Shown here: positions 45,241 to 63,493 of the stretch, piece after piece | Layout of the letters: each line of letters begins with the position of its first letter | Position numbering within the stretch: the first letter of the stretch is position 1 | Source: Sorex araneus | Lineage: Eukaryota; Chordata; Mammalia; Eulipotyphla; Soricidae | Length of the DNA: 64,000 nucleotides | Direction of reading: 5' to 3' | Assembly: GCF_027595985.1 (NCBI RefSeq) | Contig: NC_073305.1 | Location: 87,724,626 to 87,788,625 of the forward strand | Translations under genes and position numbers: made by a program | The notes under the pieces: model-generated | The model's input: only the letters and a program-made list of their open reading frames with translations | Databases searched by the model: none | Told to the model about the DNA's origin: nothing

Positions 45241-46549
45241 AAAATTAATTTAAAAAAGAATGAAAGTATAACAAGAACTTGGGTGAGGTTTAATATCAAT
45301 AAATAACTTCCCACCCCTCACCCCTCCACCTAGAGGCCTATTTATGATCCTGCTAGCTCAGTTATCTAGGTAAAACTGTAGGTAAAAAACTTCAGTGAGA
45401 ACAAGACATTCTTGGCAACTGAATGCTCTTTCTGTGGCAAGGGTGACAGATTTCGCTGTTGTCTCATGGCTCCATCCACCCTCCCATAGGCTCCGTCCAT
45501 CATCTAAAACTACAAAATTATGAAAGTACGTCAGTGTCATCCATCCTGCCCACACAGAAGACAAGTGAGAGAAACCAAAGAAGTGGTGAGGGCGACTATA
45601 AAGGGCTGTACCTTAAAGAAGAGCTGTAGGAGATATCACTTTCAAATTAAAAAAAAAAAATCCCAGCACTATCTTCTCTCCACACCCACAAATTACTGGT
45701 CCTCAGGATGACAGGAAAGCAGGAAAGGCTCCTTGAGAAAATTGCTGCGCTTTGTTCAGAAACTATTTCAAATGTGCATATTTCCGCATACATTAGCTCC
45801 CAGCACAGTTAGCATATGGTGGGGACACAAATTCTTCTTAATCATTTATATGTTGACTACACAAAATTCGGGGCTCATTTAAATTTTATATTCAGCAGGA
45901 GCACAATTCACCATTGGGCACCTCCAGGAAAAACCCACTCACAGGAAAATGTGAAAAATGAAAACTGTCGCTCTCCAACTTCTCTTGCTACCAGCCAATG
46001 CCCCTTCGTGGAGCTCTAGCCCCCCTCCGCCCATACAAACTCCCGGTGGCATTTCTTCCAGCACAGTTCAGGGCAGGGAATAACACGCTCATCTGCAGAA
46101 TGATGCATCCAATTACTTTTTTAATCCTGAAAAGTAACAGCCTCCCGCGACAGTCGCAAAGTTTCCAGGTGCATTTTCACAAAGGAAAACGGTTGGTTCT
46201 GGAAAAATCCCGCATCCTTCCACCTAGCCTTTACTCGGTTTTAGGAGGAAGAAGAAGAAGAAAAAAAAAAACCCCACGGGTAAAAAAGAAAAAATGGTTG
46301 CACCGATTGGGTGCGGATTTTGACTGGAGACCCCGTGTGGGACAGCCCAAGGCCTAGTCGGAAACATTCCCGGAGCAGAGCCCACCCCCTCCGACTCCGA
46401 CAGGCTCCGCATCGGGCGAGACTTAGTCTCCCCCCACCCTCTCTAAGGCGCCAAGGCAAACACCCATCAAAAGCGTCCAGACTCGGCGGACCCAGAGTTC
46501 TCCAGCCTACGGGGAGGCATCCACATGACCAAGGAGGAGAGAAACTAAA
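45241..46549. other. SINE-free stretch leading to the CILK1 island
   Basis: About 1.3 kb of intron 1 or promoter-flank DNA with no recognised repeat; GC content rises from about 46300. Confidence 0.45.
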
Positions 46550-47250
46550 TCCCATTAGCGACTCCCCCCCAATCCCCCCGTGGCACCACCCCCCAGCCCC
46601 TCGCGGGGCCCGCCGGACCTGGGGGGGGGTCCCTGCGCAGCGCCGGCCCGTCCCCCCCCACCCCCGAGTGACCAGTGCCCGCCAGTCGCCCCCCCACCCC
46701 CCGATCCCCGACCCCACTTACTGGCGCTGCGAATCCAGGCGGGGGCCCGCCTTGCGGTGAGCGGCGCTCTCGGCGACAGGGCGCCGCGGCCGGCTCAGGC
46801 GCTGGGGACCCGGCGAGCCGCGCTGGCAGCGGCCGAGGGCTCGGCTGGGGACGCCCGGCAGGTCCGGCCACTCGCTGGGGCCGCGCGGCGCATGGCACAG
46901 CAGCGGGAGTCGGGCCTCGGGCAGGAAAACAAACAAAAGGCAGGGAGGCTCTGCCGGGCCCGGCGGGCCGCTTTCCCGGGGAAAAGTTACCCTGCAGCTC
47001 CCCTCGGTGGCCCTGCGCGTCCCTGCACCGCGTCGGGGCCGCCGCAGGGCGCGCCGGCTTCGGCCCGCCCGACCGCGCAGAGCACCCGAGGCCGCCCAGG
47101 ACCACCCAGGCGACGCCAGCGCCCGCCGCGGCGTCTCCTTACCGAGGAGCGGGCCGGGGGGCACCAGATACCGAGGTCTGGACTTGGAGGCCGTGGTGCA
47201 GGCAACGCCCGGAGAAGGTTTTTCGTTCTAGGTAATCCAAGTGAAACATT
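46550..47250 (-). promoter_or_regulatory. CpG island, probable CILK1 promoter
   Basis: About 700 bp of very GC-rich, CpG-dense sequence without SINEs, sharply different from the AT-rich flanks. There is no obvious TATA box. The only strong splice donor noticed is on the minus strand (46721), which argues for leftward transcription into CILK1. Long open frames here on both strands reflect lack of stop codons in GC-rich DNA. Confidence 0.7.
46722..46950 (-). other. CILK1: Candidate CILK1 non-coding exon 1
   Basis: In the CpG island upstream of the coding exons, the minus strand reads CGCAGCGCCA|GTAAGTGGGG, a perfect U1-type donor at 46721-46720. A transcript starting in the island and using this donor would splice about 22 kb to exon 2 at 24.6 kb. 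The position fits the known gene structure, a 5' untranslated exon near FBXO9. The transcription start is not determined from sequence, so the right boundary is only indicative. Confidence 0.5.
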
Positions 47251-48117: not shown

Positions 48118-49640
48118 ATTTCTGATTCTGTTGCTACTCTGAAGCAGTTGTCCCAAGCAATGCAATTTTAGTTAAACTAGTCACCCACCAACACTTTGCA
48201 GATCCTTCTCCAAGGTTACAGTTCCCAGCTCGTCACAGTATGAATTTTCTCTCATTTTCTTTTAATTATTTCTGAATTAAAGAAGTGAAAGTGCGGTTTT
48301 TTTTTTCTTTCTTAAAAGAATCTATACCAAAAGCCCAAAGGCCTTTCCCTGGTCATGCCTGTTGAGGGGGGAAAAAAAAAGAGAGAAGGAATATAAGCCT
48401 GTCAAACTTTCCCAAATGGGAAAGTGTCATCTGGACATTTGGCAAATGAATGGCACTTTTACCATTCTGTTTACACATATCACACCTAAACCAGCTCTGA
48501 AACAAAAAGCCATTATTAATGAAGGGATGGAGGGGGCAGGGCATGAAGCTCTGAGTAGCATAATATATCATATGCTACTCTGGGAAAAGTGATTTAGGTA
48601 TCAAAATCATCAGCTTTATTATTAAGCGGATGTCCAGACCAAGTCTACCAAGCAAAGAAAGAAATTACTTTTAAAAAACACCTAATGAGCAAGCAAATGG
48701 TTCAGGTCAGTAGTCCGAGCCTTGGGATAATTATAACATTGCAAATAGAATATGATGCAATAGTATAACCCTGTAAAGAGAACCAGTGTGGCTACTGATC
48801 TAAAATAGCAAATTAGTTGCTATAAAACATAACTGTTTTATTGAAATAGCTGCTCAATTTACCCTTACAAAAGCTAATTAATATTTTACTATGCTTTATT
48901 GCTTTTTGCTAGAATAATGAACATCATCTGAGCTAATTGACCTTGATATCTTAAATTAGCATTCAACTTAGGTTAACAAAATTGAGCAGATCTGAAAATA
49001 TTTAAGTACACCATTATTTGTTTTCTAATTCAATGAGTCACTTTTATCATTTCATTGTATACTAAACCTTAATCTTTTCCTCTAATTTAAAATTTAAAAA
49101 TCAAATTTTATAGGGGTCATTGAGAAGAAAAATCACTCTTAATAGATTGGCCCTAAAGTTTCCTTTAAAAACTTACTTTTTCTTTTTTTTTTTACCGTTC
49201 TTAAATATTAGGACACTTATTAACTAAGCTGCTGAATTAGGGACAAACCAAAAAAATCCATCAAAGGGCAGATTTTAATATCAAAAGAAAAGATTTGGGC
49301 TTCCTTATTGTAGTTCACCATTCTCCCCCTTCTCTTTCTTCTGTGTTTTCTGCCAAAGACGTACTACATTTCTAGAGTCCCAGAAAGAAAAAAAAAAAAA
49401 CGGTTTCAGTTCTGGGAACTTGTTGAAAGTAGAGCATGGAACTCATAAGTAATAAACATCCTAGACATCTAGAAAAGACTTTAGAAACACCATAAATGTT
49501 TATTAAATAGACCATAATATATTCATTGTGTGGGTGTTTGATTTCATAGAACATGCAAAGCTCCATGCAAAGCTCCATCTTTTGAACGACTCCAAACTGC
49601 CAGTAACTGAGAGGTCATTCGATCCGGGAGGAATCAGGGG
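48118..49640. other. SINE-free AT-rich spacer between CILK1 and FBXO9
   Basis: About 1.5 kb with no recognisable retroelement in a region that otherwise has about one SINE per kb. The core at 48720-49100 is AT-rich with TAATTA-type words (CTAATTAATATTTTACTATG, GAGCTAATTGACC) typical of homeodomain-bound or conserved non-coding DNA. No exon is recognised. Retention without insertions suggests constraint, but this is inference. Confidence 0.4.
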
Positions 49641-49711
49641 GTTGGGCTTTAAGAGGTTGGGCTTTAAGAGGCTCTGGTCTGAAGTTCCGGCATTCAGCGC
49701 AGACCGAGCGG

Positions 49712-49731
49712 ACTACAAACCCCAGAGTGCC
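49712..49731 (+). promoter_or_regulatory. ZNF143/SBS-like site
   Basis: ACTACAAACCCCAGAGTGCC resembles the ZNF143/Staf consensus (ACTACAA, then C-rich CCCA, then TGC). The core ACTACAA and CCCAG are intact; the ATGC end is changed to GTGC. Confidence 0.55.
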
Positions 49732-49796
49732 TCGCGGTCGCCGGCCCGCAAAACTCCGGTTTCAAGAACTTGGTGCGGCCGCGTCCTGCCCCACCT

Positions 49797-49816
49797 TGCA
49801 TGATGGGACTTGTAGT
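49797..49816 (-). promoter_or_regulatory. ZNF143/SBS site
   Basis: The minus strand reads ACTACAAGTCCCATCATGCA, matching the ACTACAAnTCCCAnnATGC consensus fully. It points away from the site at 49712, giving an inverted pair about 65 bp apart. Confidence 0.7.
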
Positions 49817-50062
49817 GCGACCGTCTGCTCCGCGCGAGTCGTCGTGGCTAGCACCTACAACTGCCCCGCCGCTGTCTCGAGCATCTTTCCGCCCTCTGGC
49901 GGACCCGTTCTTTCGAAACGTTTATTTGTTGTAACAGCGTCTGGGCTGTGGCGAAGTTTCACCGTTACCCCCCGCATTCGTGGCGCGCGACTTTAGCCGT
50001 GCACCGACGGTCCCGACTGCCAAATTCCAGGCGCTCTAAGGTCCCCACCCTCCATGAGAAAC

Positions 50063-50064
<2 letters not shown>

Positions 50065-50096
<32 letters not shown>
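50065..50096 (+). repeat. (ATT)n microsatellite in FBXO9 promoter
   Basis: About ten ATT units, an AT-rich island in otherwise GC-rich promoter DNA, roughly 150 bp before the CGG repeat. Confidence 0.9.
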
Positions 50097-50242
50097 TTCA
50101 AGTATAGGAGTGCGCACTATGGAGCCTGAGTTGGGCGTGTCGCCAACTGGCGGCTGGGCCTCGCGCCCTTGGGTTCTCTCTGCCCTCGCGCCCCGTCGGC
50201 GGCGGCGCTGGCACCGCCACCAGCCGGCGGGCGACGCGGCAC

Positions 50243-50254
50243 TGCGCGTGCGCG
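50243..50254 (-). promoter_or_regulatory. NRF1-like site
   Basis: The minus strand reads CGCGCACGCGCA, an exact fit to the palindromic NRF1 consensus YGCGCAYGCGCR. Located upstream of the probable FBXO9 start. Confidence 0.6.
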
Positions 50255-50260
50255 GACCAG

Positions 50261-50310
50261 GCAGCAGCGGCGGCGGCGGCGGCGGCGGCAGCAGCGGCGG
50301 CGGCGGCGCA
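50261..50310 (+). repeat. CGG/CAG trinucleotide repeat at FBXO9 start
   Basis: Two CGG runs interrupted by CAG units. It lies in promoter or 5' UTR sequence; whether it is transcribed depends on the exact start. Confidence 0.85.
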
Positions 50311-50461
50311 GGTTACCGCAGCCCACGGGCCCGCTGTGCTGCGACGTCTGGGCTCTGGGGCAGGGCCCTTGGCGGCTATTGGTGGAGTTGTCGGCCTCGG
50401 CTGGCGGCGGGCGCGTCTCCGCTGCGCCGGTACTCGCCCCGACCCGGCCCCCTGGCCCGCG

Positions 50462-50472
50462 AACATGGCTGC
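50462..50472 (+). promoter_or_regulatory. YY1-like element, probable start-proximal site
   Basis: AACATGGCTGC fits the AAnATGGCnGC YY1 consensus on the plus strand. Such sites commonly sit just downstream of the start in TATA-less promoters, so the FBXO9 start is probably a little upstream, around 50440-50460. Confidence 0.5.
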
Positions 50473-50536
50473 CGTGCGTCGGGCCCGCAGTCACCGCCGC
50501 TGCCTGGTGCGCTTCTCCGACCGAGAACTCTGCTGA
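50465..50536 (+). CDS. Possible upstream ORF in FBXO9 5' UTR (23 codons)
   Basis: An ATG in strong context (AACATGG) opens a 23-codon frame, MAAVRRARSHRR and on to RELC, ended by TGA at 50534-50536. That is 89 bases before the FBXO9 ATG. If the mRNA starts upstream of 50465 this would be a non-overlapping uORF able to modulate FBXO9 translation. The ATG is also the centre of the YY1-like motif, so it could be a promoter site and not be translated. No family is recognised. Confidence 0.3.
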   Translation: MAAVRRARSHRRCLVRFSDRELC

Positions 50537-50625
50537 GCCCGGCACGCAGAGCGGCACGCAGGCAGGAGTAGGCGACACCCGCACACCGGCTCGGGGCTGG
50601 GCAGCGCACGGGGCAGCCCGCCAGC

Positions 50626-50628
50626 ATG
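50626..50628 (+). CDS. FBXO9: FBXO9 exon 1 coding part (initiator ATG)
   Basis: Exon 1 is almost entirely 5' UTR. Its last three bases are the initiator codon in CCAGCATG|GTAACC, with the donor at 50629. Exon 2 opens directly with GCA GAA GCT, giving [11 protein letters not shown] as in the mammalian protein. The split is phase 0 immediately after the start codon. The donor GTAACC is canonical GT but not optimal at +5. A G run of 13 lies about 15 bases inside the intron. Confidence 0.88.
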
Positions 50629-51330
50629 GTAACCTGGGCATGGTTGCGGGGGGGGGGGGGTCGCTAGCTGGAGACGGTGGGGGGCCAGGGACCCGTGAGA
50701 GATGGGGCTGCGGCGGTGCCAGGAGGGGCCAGGTCAGGTGTGTGGGGGGGAAGGAGCCGTTTTGCACCCCCCCATTATGCAGCCGGGATGGAGAGGGATG
50801 GATAGGGGCTGGCGGGTGGGGACCGCTCCCACTGCGCCCTGGGGTTCGGTCCTGCCACCCCCCACCCACAGCCCAGCCCGCTCGGGTGGTCAGTTGCAAA
50901 CACATTTCCGGGAGCCTGTTGGGGAAGGGCCGGCTGGTGACCCCAGAACCCCCCTTCCCCTTCCATGGTCTGCTTTCCGAGGACCGCGCCCCATCTTGCC
51001 CCTCTTGGGATCCTGTCCCGCAGGCTCTGAGCGTGGAGGGGGGCGCGCGCGCTGCGGAGAAATTGGGGAGGCGAGCGCGGCGGGGAGGGGGGAGCAGGGG
51101 GAGCCTTAGGAAGCCGACGACGCACTTGTGGATTGCGCCCCAGCTGGAAGTCCTCGCCTCCCGAGGGGCCGCTGACTGCGAGGAGGCCCAGGTTTCTGGC
51201 ACACCTGCCCCTGGGCGTCAGAGGAGCCTGCTTGGCAGGCCGCTCCGCTCAGCTCGACCCGCTGGGCCGCACTCCACCGCAGCGTCAGTGCCAGGCGGAT
51301 GGGGAGCCCCGGCGCATCTCGTTTAACAGC

Positions 51331-53863: not shown

Positions 53864-53950
53864 GCAGAAGCTGAGGAAGATTGTCACTCGGATGCTGTCA
53901 GAGCAGGAAATGATGAGGAAAATGAAAGCTCTGCCGAAACAGATCTGCAG
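53864..53950 (+). CDS. FBXO9: FBXO9 exon 2
   Basis: 87 bases, 29 codons (residues 2-30): [18 protein letters not shown], then [11 protein letters not shown]. This is the acidic N-terminus of FBXO9, two or three substitutions away from human by memory. The acceptor is TCTCCTCCACAG|GCAGAA. The 3' boundary is set by the next exon, which must start AQLQ; that places the donor at CTGCAG|GCATGT, a GC donor. Reading through gives a stop about 100 bases on, so the exon does end here. A second AG four bases later in the acceptor (CAGGCAG) would shift the frame and is unlikely. Confidence 0.92.
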
Positions 53951-54221
53951 GCATGTTGTCTGTTTAGTTATCATTCATGTGTTAGCTAAAATCTCGTCAC
54001 GATTTGTATTTTCCAAATTCTGTGGAATTGTTTTCACACTAGTGTTTTAGCATACTTGCATTGTTAGTGGAGTGCTGTACAAAAGAACATAGCAAGCCCA
54101 GGTTTGTAGACTAATGTGCGTTTAAAGAATTCAAACCAAGGTTCAAGTGAGACTCAGGTCCCTTAAATAAAAGATTGACAGACTGCACCTCCTAAGCATT
54201 TAAAATTTGTGTCTAGCAAAA

Positions 54222-58067: not shown

Positions 58068-58220
58068 GCCCAGCTGCAGATCTTCCGAGCTCAGTGGATG
58101 TTTGAACTTGCCCCAGGTGTGGGCACAAGCATAGAAACTCGACCTGGCAGAGCAGCAAGAGGCTCTTTCCTAAAAGCAGCAGAAGGCAAAGGAAAACAAG
58201 AACTGGCAAAAGAAGAAAAG
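58068..58220 (+). CDS. FBXO9: FBXO9 exon 3, with abnormal 3' splice donor
   Basis: 153 bases, 51 codons (residues 31-81): [18 protein letters not shown], a variable Ser/Lys-rich linker, then [11 protein letters not shown]. The acceptor is CTCCTGCTAG|GCCCAG. Compared with human from memory the linker is a few residues shorter and diverged, but the flanks are conserved and the frame is open. The next exon starts in phase 0 with Ala-Arg-Glu-Leu, so this exon should end after AAG at 58220. The following bases are TTAAGT, not GT. Using the GT at 58220-58221 would drop one base and meet a TAA soon in exon 4. Length divisible by three means skipping the exon would keep the frame. Confidence 0.88.
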
Positions 58221-58540
58221 TTAAGTATTATGGACATCTCCTACTAAATTCACTTTTTTGGGGGGTGGATGGGGTACACATAAAAAAATTTCATGGACAT
58301 TATGTCATTATTGTATCTAATGAAGGAAACACAGAGTTATATATGATAAAATATATCATGTGGGAAAAATATTGACCGTCATGCCAGTTTGTTTTATCCC
58401 TCACTGCTACTTCCGGGAACTTCGAATGATACTCATGGTCTTCTTTCGTATAGGCACACTGTCTTCTCGGAACTGTCTGTGGTAATTCCTACATCCCTGA
58501 CGTTCCCGGGGTCCGCAAAAGATTGACGATGCTAAATTTT
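58221..58540. other. Start of FBXO9 intron 3, unique
   Basis: Begins TTAAGTATTATGG where a GT donor would be expected. No repeat recognised. Confidence 0.6.
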
Positions 58541-58693
58541 TTTGTTTTGGCAATGCTCAGGGCTTACTTCTGCCTCTGCACTGACGGATCACTCCTGGCA
58601 GGCTTGGGGGACCATATAGGGTGCCAGGGATCAAACCTGGGTTGGCTGCTTGTCAGGCAAGATCTCTACCCATTGTACTAAAGCTACAGCCCT
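58541..58693 (-). repeat. SINE form A (old)
   Basis: GGCAATGCTCAGGGCTTACTTC to ACTAAAGCTACAGCCC. Confidence 0.8.
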
Positions 58694-58716
58694 AAACTCT
58701 TTTGCTTGTTTGTTTT

Positions 58717-58850
58717 TTACCTTTGCAACGCCTGGCGGTTCTCAGGGCTTACTCCTAGCAGGCCTTGGGGACATATGCAGTACTTTGTTACTGATCAAAC
58801 ACTGGTCAGCCACGTTCGAGGCACATGCCTTACCTGCTATGCTGGCCTCT
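58717..58850 (-). repeat. SINE form A (very old)
   Basis: GCCTGGCGGTTCTCAGGGC, GATCAAACACTGGTCAGCC, TTACCTGCTATGCTGGCC. Confidence 0.65.
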
Positions 58851-59019
58851 AATTTTGATGACAGAAGTCCAAAAACGAGTCTGTGGGTCAGGGAAGGAAA
58901 TCTTCCAATGTAAACACACATTTCCAATTTACGCAGCATTTTGATTTGGTTGGGTTGGGAAGGGGGTTAAGGGGGATTGGGGGGTATTTTTTGTTTTGGT
59001 CTGTTATTTGCTTTGGCTT

Positions 59020-59182
59020 TTTGATTTTGATTCACACCCAGTGGTGCTCAAGGGTTACTCCTGGCTCTCCCTGCAGGGATCACTTCTGCGCACAGGGGTG
59101 CATATGGGGAGCTGGAGTTTGAACCCGGGTTAGCCTTATGCCAGTCAAACACCATACCTGCTGTACTATTTGTACCAGCCCC
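59020..59182 (-). repeat. SINE form A (old)
   Basis: GATTCACACCCAGTGGTGCTC to TGTACTATTTGTACCAGCCCC. Confidence 0.8.
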
Positions 59183-59289
59183 TGTATTTTGATTTGAATA
59201 CGTGTATAATAATGCACTATTTTCTTATTCTGGAAAATGTTGAAAGTGCTTACACTGGGAAAGGGTTTTTATTCTGTTTTTTTGATGGG

Positions 59290-59460
59290 TGGGGTGGGGG
59301 TTTGGACCACATCAGTGGTGCTCAGGGCGTGCTCCTGGTTCTTTGCTCAGGGATCACTCCTAGCAGTGCTCAGGGACCATATGGGGTGCTGGGGATCAAA
59401 CCTGGGTGGGCCACATGCACGTCAAGAGCCTAACCCACTGTACTATCGCTCCAGTCCCTA
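59290..59460 (-). repeat. SINE form A
   Basis: GGACCACATCAGTGGTGCTC to GTACTATCGCTCCAGTCCC. Confidence 0.85.
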
Positions 59461-60039
59461 AGGATCTTTAAATTCTGTTGTTGGCTTCCTTCATGGTTGT
59501 GAAGTAGATGTGGCAACTGTTACACTCTGTTATTTTCCAGTTTCTTAGACTCTGTGATTTCTTTATCAGTAGTTCCAAGTTTCTGTTTATAAACAGTTTG
59601 CCACGGATATAACTGATATTACCATGAAGTAAAACTATTCCCATTCTTTTTTTTTTCCTCTAGAAATAGATTAGAACTACCTGTGGTGTTCCCTGTATTG
59701 AAATTATGCTTCACAAAAAAAAAAAGAAAGAAAGAAAAGAAATCAAGTGGACCAGAGACATACATTAAACAGCTAATGTTTTTTTCCATGTGGGAGGTTC
59801 AGGTTCAATCCTCGATCTCAAAACTCCATGTAATCCCCTAAGTTTGATTTCTGAAGGTGGCCTCTTGCATAGGTAGAGTGAGCTATGAAATACTTAGAAA
59901 TAGACATTGGTCCAACCCACAGCGCTTGTTCAGATTTCTTAGATCTATAAGCACCATTTTCTTTGTATGAGTCCAGCATTCTCTGCAGTTTCATTACTTA
60001 CAGTGACCACCACAATCAAGATACCAGACTGCTTTATTA
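59461..60039. other. Unique intron sequence with a SINE fragment
   Basis: A degraded SINE-like piece lies at 59748-59870 (GTGGACCAGAGACATACATT, GGTTCAATCCTCGATC). Otherwise unrecognised. Confidence 0.45.
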
Positions 60040-60404
60040 CTACAAAGATCCTTCTTGCTGTGTCTTTATGGATAAGACTTTTCAGCTTTTCCTGACCTTT
60101 CATGACCACTGGCAATTACTTGTTTGTTCTCTTCTCCTATAATTCTGATATTCCAAGAATATTGTGTAAATGGCATCAATATGGTATAGGAACTTTTCAG
60201 TTAACTTTGTTTACTAATTCCTTTCTGAGTCTTCCAAGTCATTTGTATGAACAGTTTCTTCCTTTTTACTTTTACTTTCTTTTGCTTTAACTTTTCAGTA
60301 GTGTTTTATAGTATAATATGTCCAATTTGTTTATTCATTGGTTAAAAGTCAATTTGGTAATTTCTAAGTTGGAAACTAAATTACTTGGTTATTAAGAGCA
60401 GAGG

Positions 60405-60555
60405 GGTTAAAGGGGCCAACAATATAGCAGGGAAGGCACGTGCCTTGCATGCAGCTCCCCTTGGTTTGATCCTCAGCACCCCATTTGACCCCCTGAGCAC
60501 AGAGCCAGGAGTGAGCACTGCACCACCAGGTGTGGCCCCCAAGCAAAAAAGAATA
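60405..60555 (+). repeat. SINE form A (old) in the L1
   Basis: GGGGCCAACAATATAGCAGG to GGTGTGGCCCCCAAGC. Confidence 0.85.
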
Positions 60556-60914
60556 GAGAAGTTATAAATATTCTCTTCCTATTATTTTCACGAGCAACTG
60601 ATTGCTTCTTTAAAACAAATACCAAACAAAGTGTACATTTGCTGAGTTATGTGGTAAGTACACATCTGCTTAAAAGAAATGGCCAAACTCAAAAGAGCTG
60701 TGTTCCTGAGTATCTGTGTCATTTTCTGTTCTGCTGCAATTTTTGAATTACCCAATGTGCCTATATCTTTGTCAACACTTGATGCTGCCACTGCTTTTTA
60801 ATTTTAGAACCTTTCTGAGTAGGTGTATAATGAAATCTTGTGATTTTAATTTGTGTTTCCCCAGGAACTGAGATAGACTCTCTCTTTTAATGTGCTATTT
60901 TGTATCTTTAAATT

Positions 60915-61096
60915 CTTTTTTTTTTTTTTTGCTTTTTGGGTCACACCCAGCGATGCTCAGGGGTTACTCCTGGCTTTGCACTCAGGAACTACTCCTGGCG
61001 GTGCTTGGGGGACCATATGGGATGCCGGGGATCGAACCCGGGTCGACCACGTGCAAGGCAAACGCCCTACCCGCTGTGCTATCGCTCCGGCCCCAT
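60915..61096 (-). repeat. SINE form A (young) in the L1
   Basis: Poly-T, GGGTCACACCCAGCGATGC to GCTATCGCTCCGGCCCC. TGTATCTTTAAATTCTTT flanks it on both sides (about 60901 and 61096), a clean 17-18-bp target duplication. Confidence 0.96.
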
Positions 61097-61541
61097 GTAT
61101 CTTTAAATTCTTTCCGAAATATCTGTGTTTTTACTGTTGCATTTGGATACTTTATGTATTCAAAATATAGATCATTTGTTGAATATGAGAAAGTAGATTC
61201 TTTTTCTCAGTTGGAAGTTTTTCCTTTTCATTCTCTTAACCAAGTGCTTTACAGAACAAAAGTTTTTAATTTTGATGAGATACAAGTGATCACTTTTCCA
61301 TTTATGGAGTTTCACTTTTAGTGTCTAATATGAAAACTCATCCTAGTTCTTAGTCTCTGACTTCCTTTATTTTTTTCCCCCTAAAAGTTGAGCATTTAAG
61401 TCCATGATCCACTTAAGGTTCAAGAGGTAGGTTCTGGTTTGTTATTTAGCTTACAGAGTTTCCAGTTGTAACATTATTCTGCTGTTTGTACTTATGTAAA
61501 TATAGCTTTTAAAAAATAGTTTTTCACTTTTTTTTTTGTAG

Positions 61542-61599
61542 GCTCGTGAACTCTTCCTAAAAGCAGTAGAAGAGGAACGAAATGGAGCTCTCTATGAAG
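61542..61599 (+). CDS. FBXO9: FBXO9 exon 4: first half of TPR-like repeat
   Basis: 58 bases, residues 82-100 plus one base: ARELFLKAVEEERNGALYE. This is helix A of the single TPR-like motif of FBXO9. Acceptor TTTTTTTGTAG|GCTCGT and donor TATGAAG|GTAAAA are canonical; phase 0 in, phase 1 out. It is preceded by about 50 bases separating it from an old antisense L1. Confidence 0.95.
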
Positions 61600-63393: not shown

Positions 63394-63493
63394 CCATCAA
63401 GTTTTATCGTAGGGCCATGCAACTTGTACCTGATATAGAGTTCAAGATTACTTATACCCGGTCTCCAGATGGTGATGGCGTTGGAAACAGCTA
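63394..63493 (+). CDS. FBXO9: FBXO9 exon 5: second half of TPR-like repeat
   Basis: 100 bases completing Ala101, then [17 protein letters not shown] and [15 protein letters not shown] (residues 102-133) and the first two bases of a Tyr codon. Helix B of the TPR-like motif is followed by the conserved linker. Acceptor CTTCTTTTAG|CCATCA; donor AACAGCTA|GTGCGT, a canonical but weak site. Reading on would give an immediate TAG, so the exon must end here. The remaining coding exons, including the F-box, are right of the window. Confidence 0.94.

Follow-up and report, generated by a model that had tools for sequence, protein, structure and literature searches.

A candidate TT-AG intron in the FBXO9 gene of Sorex araneus

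Introduction

Does exon 3 of the FBXO9 gene in the shrew Sorex araneus have a splice donor that can be used? In the 64,000-nucleotide stretch of genomic DNA analysed here (the window), the intron behind this exon opens with TT, and a first-pass annotation had concluded that the exon has no usable splice donor. Standard gene callers tend to reject introns outside the GT-AG, GC-AG and AT-AC classes, and may therefore annotate a sound gene as defective. Such introns are rare in mammals, accounting for 0.08% of events in one survey (quoted in PMC13149111). The main text of PMC11544316, which describes the shrew genome, mentions neither 'FBXO9' nor 'splice site' (0 occurrences).

The FBXO9 gene model

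The 5′ part of FBXO9 lies on the forward strand within the window. Guided by the human protein, 13 coding exons were placed, exons 1–5 inside the window and exons 6–13 downstream of it on the same contig (Table 1). The boundaries and phases proposed in the first-pass annotation, with exon 3 obliged to end in phase 0 at AAG (58220) and TTAAGT following, were confirmed. Positions 58191–58240 read GGAAAACAAGAACTGGCAAAAGAAGAAAAG|TTAAGTATTATGGACATCTC in one assembly, and exon 4 starts at 61542 (gtag|GCT CGT GAA CTC). Joining 58220 to 61542 yields an unbroken FBXO9 protein of 440 residues with a single stop, at its end, which scores above the cut-off for the Pfam families F-box-like, F-box and FBO_C. 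The 12 donors of the gene comprise ten GT, one GC (exon 2, CAG|gcatgt) and one TT (exon 3, AAG|ttaagtat).

Exon 3 retains an open frame of 51 codons, and its product shares 73.6% identity with the human protein. The other cleanly matched exons reach 86.7% to 100%, and exon 6 gives 73.5% in a match that runs into its intron. Judged by these sequence comparisons, exon 3 is among the least conserved exons of the gene and may be under weaker constraint. Compared with solved structures, it had no relative (one match, E 0.25).

Table 1. Coordinates of FBXO9 features and of candidate donors around exon 3 (positions in the window)
Feature	Position	Strand	Details
Exon 1, coding part (ATG)	50626..50628	+	donor ATG|gtaacc
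Exon 2	53864..53950	+	87 nt, frame-neutral, GC donor CAG|gcatgt
Exon 3	58068..58220	+	153 nt, frame-neutral, acceptor tcctgctag|GCC
Cryptic donor CAG|gtgtgg in exon 3	58117..58118	+	profile score 8.05, shifts the frame of exon 4
Weak donor GGT|gtgggc in exon 3	58119..58120	+	profile score 1.09, keeps the frame (406 aa)
GT one base upstream of TT	58220..58221	+	cut gives ...EEKLVNSS*
TT opening intron 3, proposed non-canonical donor	58221..58222	+	context AAG|TTAAGTAT
GT four bases downstream of TT	58225..58226	+	cut gives ...EEKLSS*
Intron 3, putative TT-AG	58221..61541	+	3′ end ttttttttttgtag, AG at 61540-61541
Exon 4	61542..61599	+	58 nt, phase 0 entry, donor AAG|gtaaaa
Exon 5	63394..63493	+	100 nt, donor CTA|gtgcgt

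No second copy of the 401-base FBXO9 region was found, with one occurrence in the genome, and no retrocopy carrying the exon 3–exon 4 junction was found when the genome was searched with the joined coding sequence and the protein. Of the 38 matches in the DNA search, 11 fall in the FBXO9 locus, and the 27 outside it are all confined to a GAT-repeat stretch (query 404–447); all nine matches of the protein search fall in the FBXO9 locus. The sensitivity of these searches is limited, as exon 5 was missed at the DNA level and exons 4 and 5 gave no separate matches at the protein level. A pseudogene or retrocopy is contradicted by the 13 exons, the open 440-residue frame and the remaining splice sites, which are GT or GC with AG.

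Cuts that keep the reading frame

The cut at TT keeps the FBXO9 frame and the two adjacent GT cuts break it, leaving one weak in-frame GT (exon end 58118). Translation bore out the frame shifts that the first-pass annotation had predicted for the adjacent sites (Table 1). Its statement that these were the only GT choices nearby overlooks the two GT donors inside exon 3 (exon ends 58116 and 58118). A cut at the first of these, the fairly strong CAG|GTGTGG, joined to the normal acceptor, leads to an immediate stop after LAPGS; the second, GGT|GTGGGC, is an in-frame GT 102 nt upstream of the TT cut. When every GT or GC donor downstream of 58075 (inclusive) was paired with AG acceptors between 61252 and 61590, 51 pairs kept the frame, 43 of them with an acceptor inside exon 4 and eight with the normal acceptor, namely seven weak GC donors and GGT|GTGGGC. 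Only by joining 58220 to 61542 is the complete FBXO9 protein preserved.

Reading through past the end of exon 3 reaches a stop after eight more residues (LSIMDISY). Skipping is in frame in each combination examined: loss of exon 3 gives 389 residues, of exon 2 411 and of both 360. The earlier suggestion that omission of the 153-nt exon 3 would be frame-neutral is upheld by the 389-residue product.

Strength and origin of the TT donor

The context AAG|TTAAGTAT pairs with U1 at nine of 11 positions (−2, −1 and +2 to +8, with mismatches at −3 and +1), a match on which the first-pass annotation did not remark. On a human donor profile, the TT donor scores 1.74, the lowest of the 12 FBXO9 donors; the GC donor follows at 3.28 and the ten GT donors range from 3.65 to 11.08. 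The predicted U1 duplex energy is −5.8 for the TT donor, −12.5 for its GT form (G at +1) and −5.0 for the GT one base upstream. The low profile score, a U1 energy far from that of the GT form and hardly better than that of the upstream GT, and the lower identity of exon 3 all speak against a working TT site. Among 11 FBXO9 exon ends, that of exon 3 is the richest in purines, with a fraction of 0.87 over its final 30 nt (next 0.70).

By the donor profile, the context AAG..AAGT is expected around ~2.6% of donors struck at random by mutation or error, whereas it would be expected of a TT donor that still works. A compensating U1 gene, with a 5′ end that pairs with T at +1, was sought as a 25-base pattern and gave 0 exact matches in the genome; the normal U1 5′ end, searched as a control, gave 21, these counts being lower bounds in which pseudogenes are included. 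A donor ranking by Erkelenz et al. from 2018 reportedly places TT after GC, and was left unused in the weighing here.

The first-pass annotation had favoured loss of one G from AAG|GTTAAGT and offered a G-to-T change at +1 as the other history. On the human donor profile, AAG|GTAAGT, which differs by one substitution, reaches 12.7 bits, compared with 3.6 for AAG|GTTAAG, which differs by one deletion; the substitution is thus favoured ~546-fold. The TT is most likely explained by a single G-to-T change at +1 of AAG|GTAAGT, the simpler history, and it is the second of the two proposals that the profile supports; we infer the ancestral base at +1 to have been G.

Comparison with ETV1 and other non-canonical donors

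Human ETV1 contains a constitutive TT-AG junction (Parada et al., 2014, PMC4176328). In the shrew genome, ETV1 was found in seven pieces on contig C1 near 377.1 Mb, with 78–98% identity to the human protein. Five of its donors are readable by eye, four GT and one TT. The TT donor follows ...HPSRTE-G and reads ACAGAAG|TTAAGTTTTT (L069 208|209, C1 near 377,125,907). The 9-mer AAG|TTAAGT, from −3 to +6, is identical at this exon end and at that of FBXO9 exon 3. As the sole TT among the five readable donors, the shrew ETV1 site is the apparent counterpart of the published human junction.

Shrew ETV4 and ETV5 both enter the following exon in phase 1. If ETV1 is like them, its exon ends in phase 1, so that the TT cut would keep the ETV1 frame and the GT one base upstream would break it. 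FBXO9 and ETV1 both have a GT one base upstream, and on that phase both would require the TT cut for the frame. The homologous donor of the paralog ETV4 is GT (ATGG|GTAAGA). The two sites differ in that the exon ends in phase 0 in FBXO9 and in phase 1 in ETV1, and in that FBXO9 also pairs with U1 at +7 (20 hydrogen bonds, against 18 in ETV1). A further difference is that human transcripts support the ETV1 junction, whereas the FBXO9 intron is known here from the genome.

Since the same 9-mer is present in shrew ETV1, and the TT-AG junction of the human gene is described as constitutive (PMC4176328), the FBXO9 TT donor may well work. The claim that exon 3 has no usable donor is, on this comparison, probably wrong. 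Two identical AAG|TTAAGT sites in different genes of one genome suggest that a donor fully paired with U1 elsewhere can lose the G at +1 and still function.

Two further cases are instructive. In human FANCC, c.165+1G>T creates a TT donor from which 27% of transcripts are normal and 73% skipped or cryptic and non-functional (Hartmann et al., 2010, as cited in PMC10572768). As proposed for FBXO9, the TT there arose by G-to-T at +1 and splicing is partly correct; the FANCC change is, however, a disease allele of patients and is likened to FBXO9 by its TT alone. The ACTR10 gene of some primates has a lineage-specific AT-AG intron, again a canonical donor that changed at +1 within a lineage and continues to be used; it differs in being AT rather than TT and in being backed by transcripts (PMC4176328).

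A usable TT-AG intron and its alternatives

We consider it somewhat probable (about 0.6) that FBXO9 intron 3 is a U2-type TT-AG intron that works at least partly. This is the leading reading here; a TT-AG intron had been one of the options listed in the first-pass annotation. The intron starts with TT (58221) and ends with AG (61540–61541), and the rest of its donor fits U2-type splicing and U1. According to this model, the TT donor would have arisen from AAG|GTAAGTAT through a single G-to-T substitution at +1. U1 could still pair with it at −2, −1 and from +2 to +8, and recognition of the site may be aided by the purine-rich end of exon 3. At least some transcripts would be cut at AAG|TT and so keep the 440-residue protein. 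Where the TT site is missed, in-frame skipping of exon 3 would be the most likely outcome, giving 389 residues with everything from exon 4 onward, the TPR region and the F-box included, intact. That splicing occurs at TT in this animal, and with what efficiency, we infer from the donor and its ETV1 parallel. The site is more likely a splicing curiosity than the mark of a broken gene, and caution is warranted against calling a loss of FBXO9 in the shrew from sequence alone. A more specific and more tentative proposal, which we hold to be doubtful as a whole, is that a canonical donor of this conserved mammalian gene recently became TT, converging on the ETV1 site, that it stayed usable thanks to the almost perfect U1 pairing of its other positions, and that weaker inclusion of exon 3 would now yield both the 440- and the 389-residue forms.

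The strongest alternative, though an unlikely one, is a loss-of-splicing allele, possibly private to the sequenced animal, in which most or all transcripts lack exon 3 and exon 2 is joined in frame to exon 4. The resulting 389-residue FBXO9 would lack the segment that separates the N-terminus from the TPR region. In mouse Fbxo9, the TPR domain is encoded largely by exon 4, whose deletion produces the frameshifting knockout (PMC6895989), so that neither the TPR region nor the F-box would be damaged by skipping of exon 3. This alternative draws on the frame being kept without exon 3, on the 73% of skipped or cryptic FANCC transcripts, on exon 3 being among the less conserved parts of the gene and on the occurrence of splice-dinucleotide variants in populations, of which the table of a human survey holds 175, one of them TT-AG (PMC2882926). 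It is opposed by the frame of exon 3, which is still open, by the near-perfect rest of the donor (~2.6% by a random strike) and by the ETV1 9-mer, kept in the shrew genome at what is described as a constitutive junction in human (PMC4176328). A private or hypomorphic FBXO9 allele remains among the candidates.

An error of assembly or consensus over a true GT is improbable. The call does concern a single base in a single assembly, and that one base separates a near-consensus donor from a TT site. Substitutions outside homopolymers are, however, not the usual error of long reads, and a random error would not single out donors that are perfect at their other positions (2.6%). That exon 3 is cut at another donor, namely the GT at 58220 with a bulged U1, CAG|GTGTGG (8.05) or GGT|GTGGGC (in frame), is very improbable even though all three sites are in the sequence, as the first two are out of frame with exon 4, none of the AGs between 61252 and 61590 restores the frame for the GT at 58220, and GGT|GTGGGC scores well below all ten GT donors of the gene.

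Further observations on the locus

The GC donor of exon 2 lies at 53951–53956, which places exon 3 between two successive non-GT donors. In exon 6, downstream of the window, a GAT repeat encodes an aspartate run (DNDDDDDDDDS) longer than that in the human protein. At 58080–58082, the methionine that starts a short human FBXO9 isoform (LQMFRAQ) is replaced by isoleucine in the shrew (LQIFRAQ). Finally, two GC-rich and CpG-rich stretches, at 46400–47199 and 49600–50800, lie ~2.4 kb apart; the second covers FBXO9 exon 1, whereas the first possibly acts as promoter for an adjacent gene.
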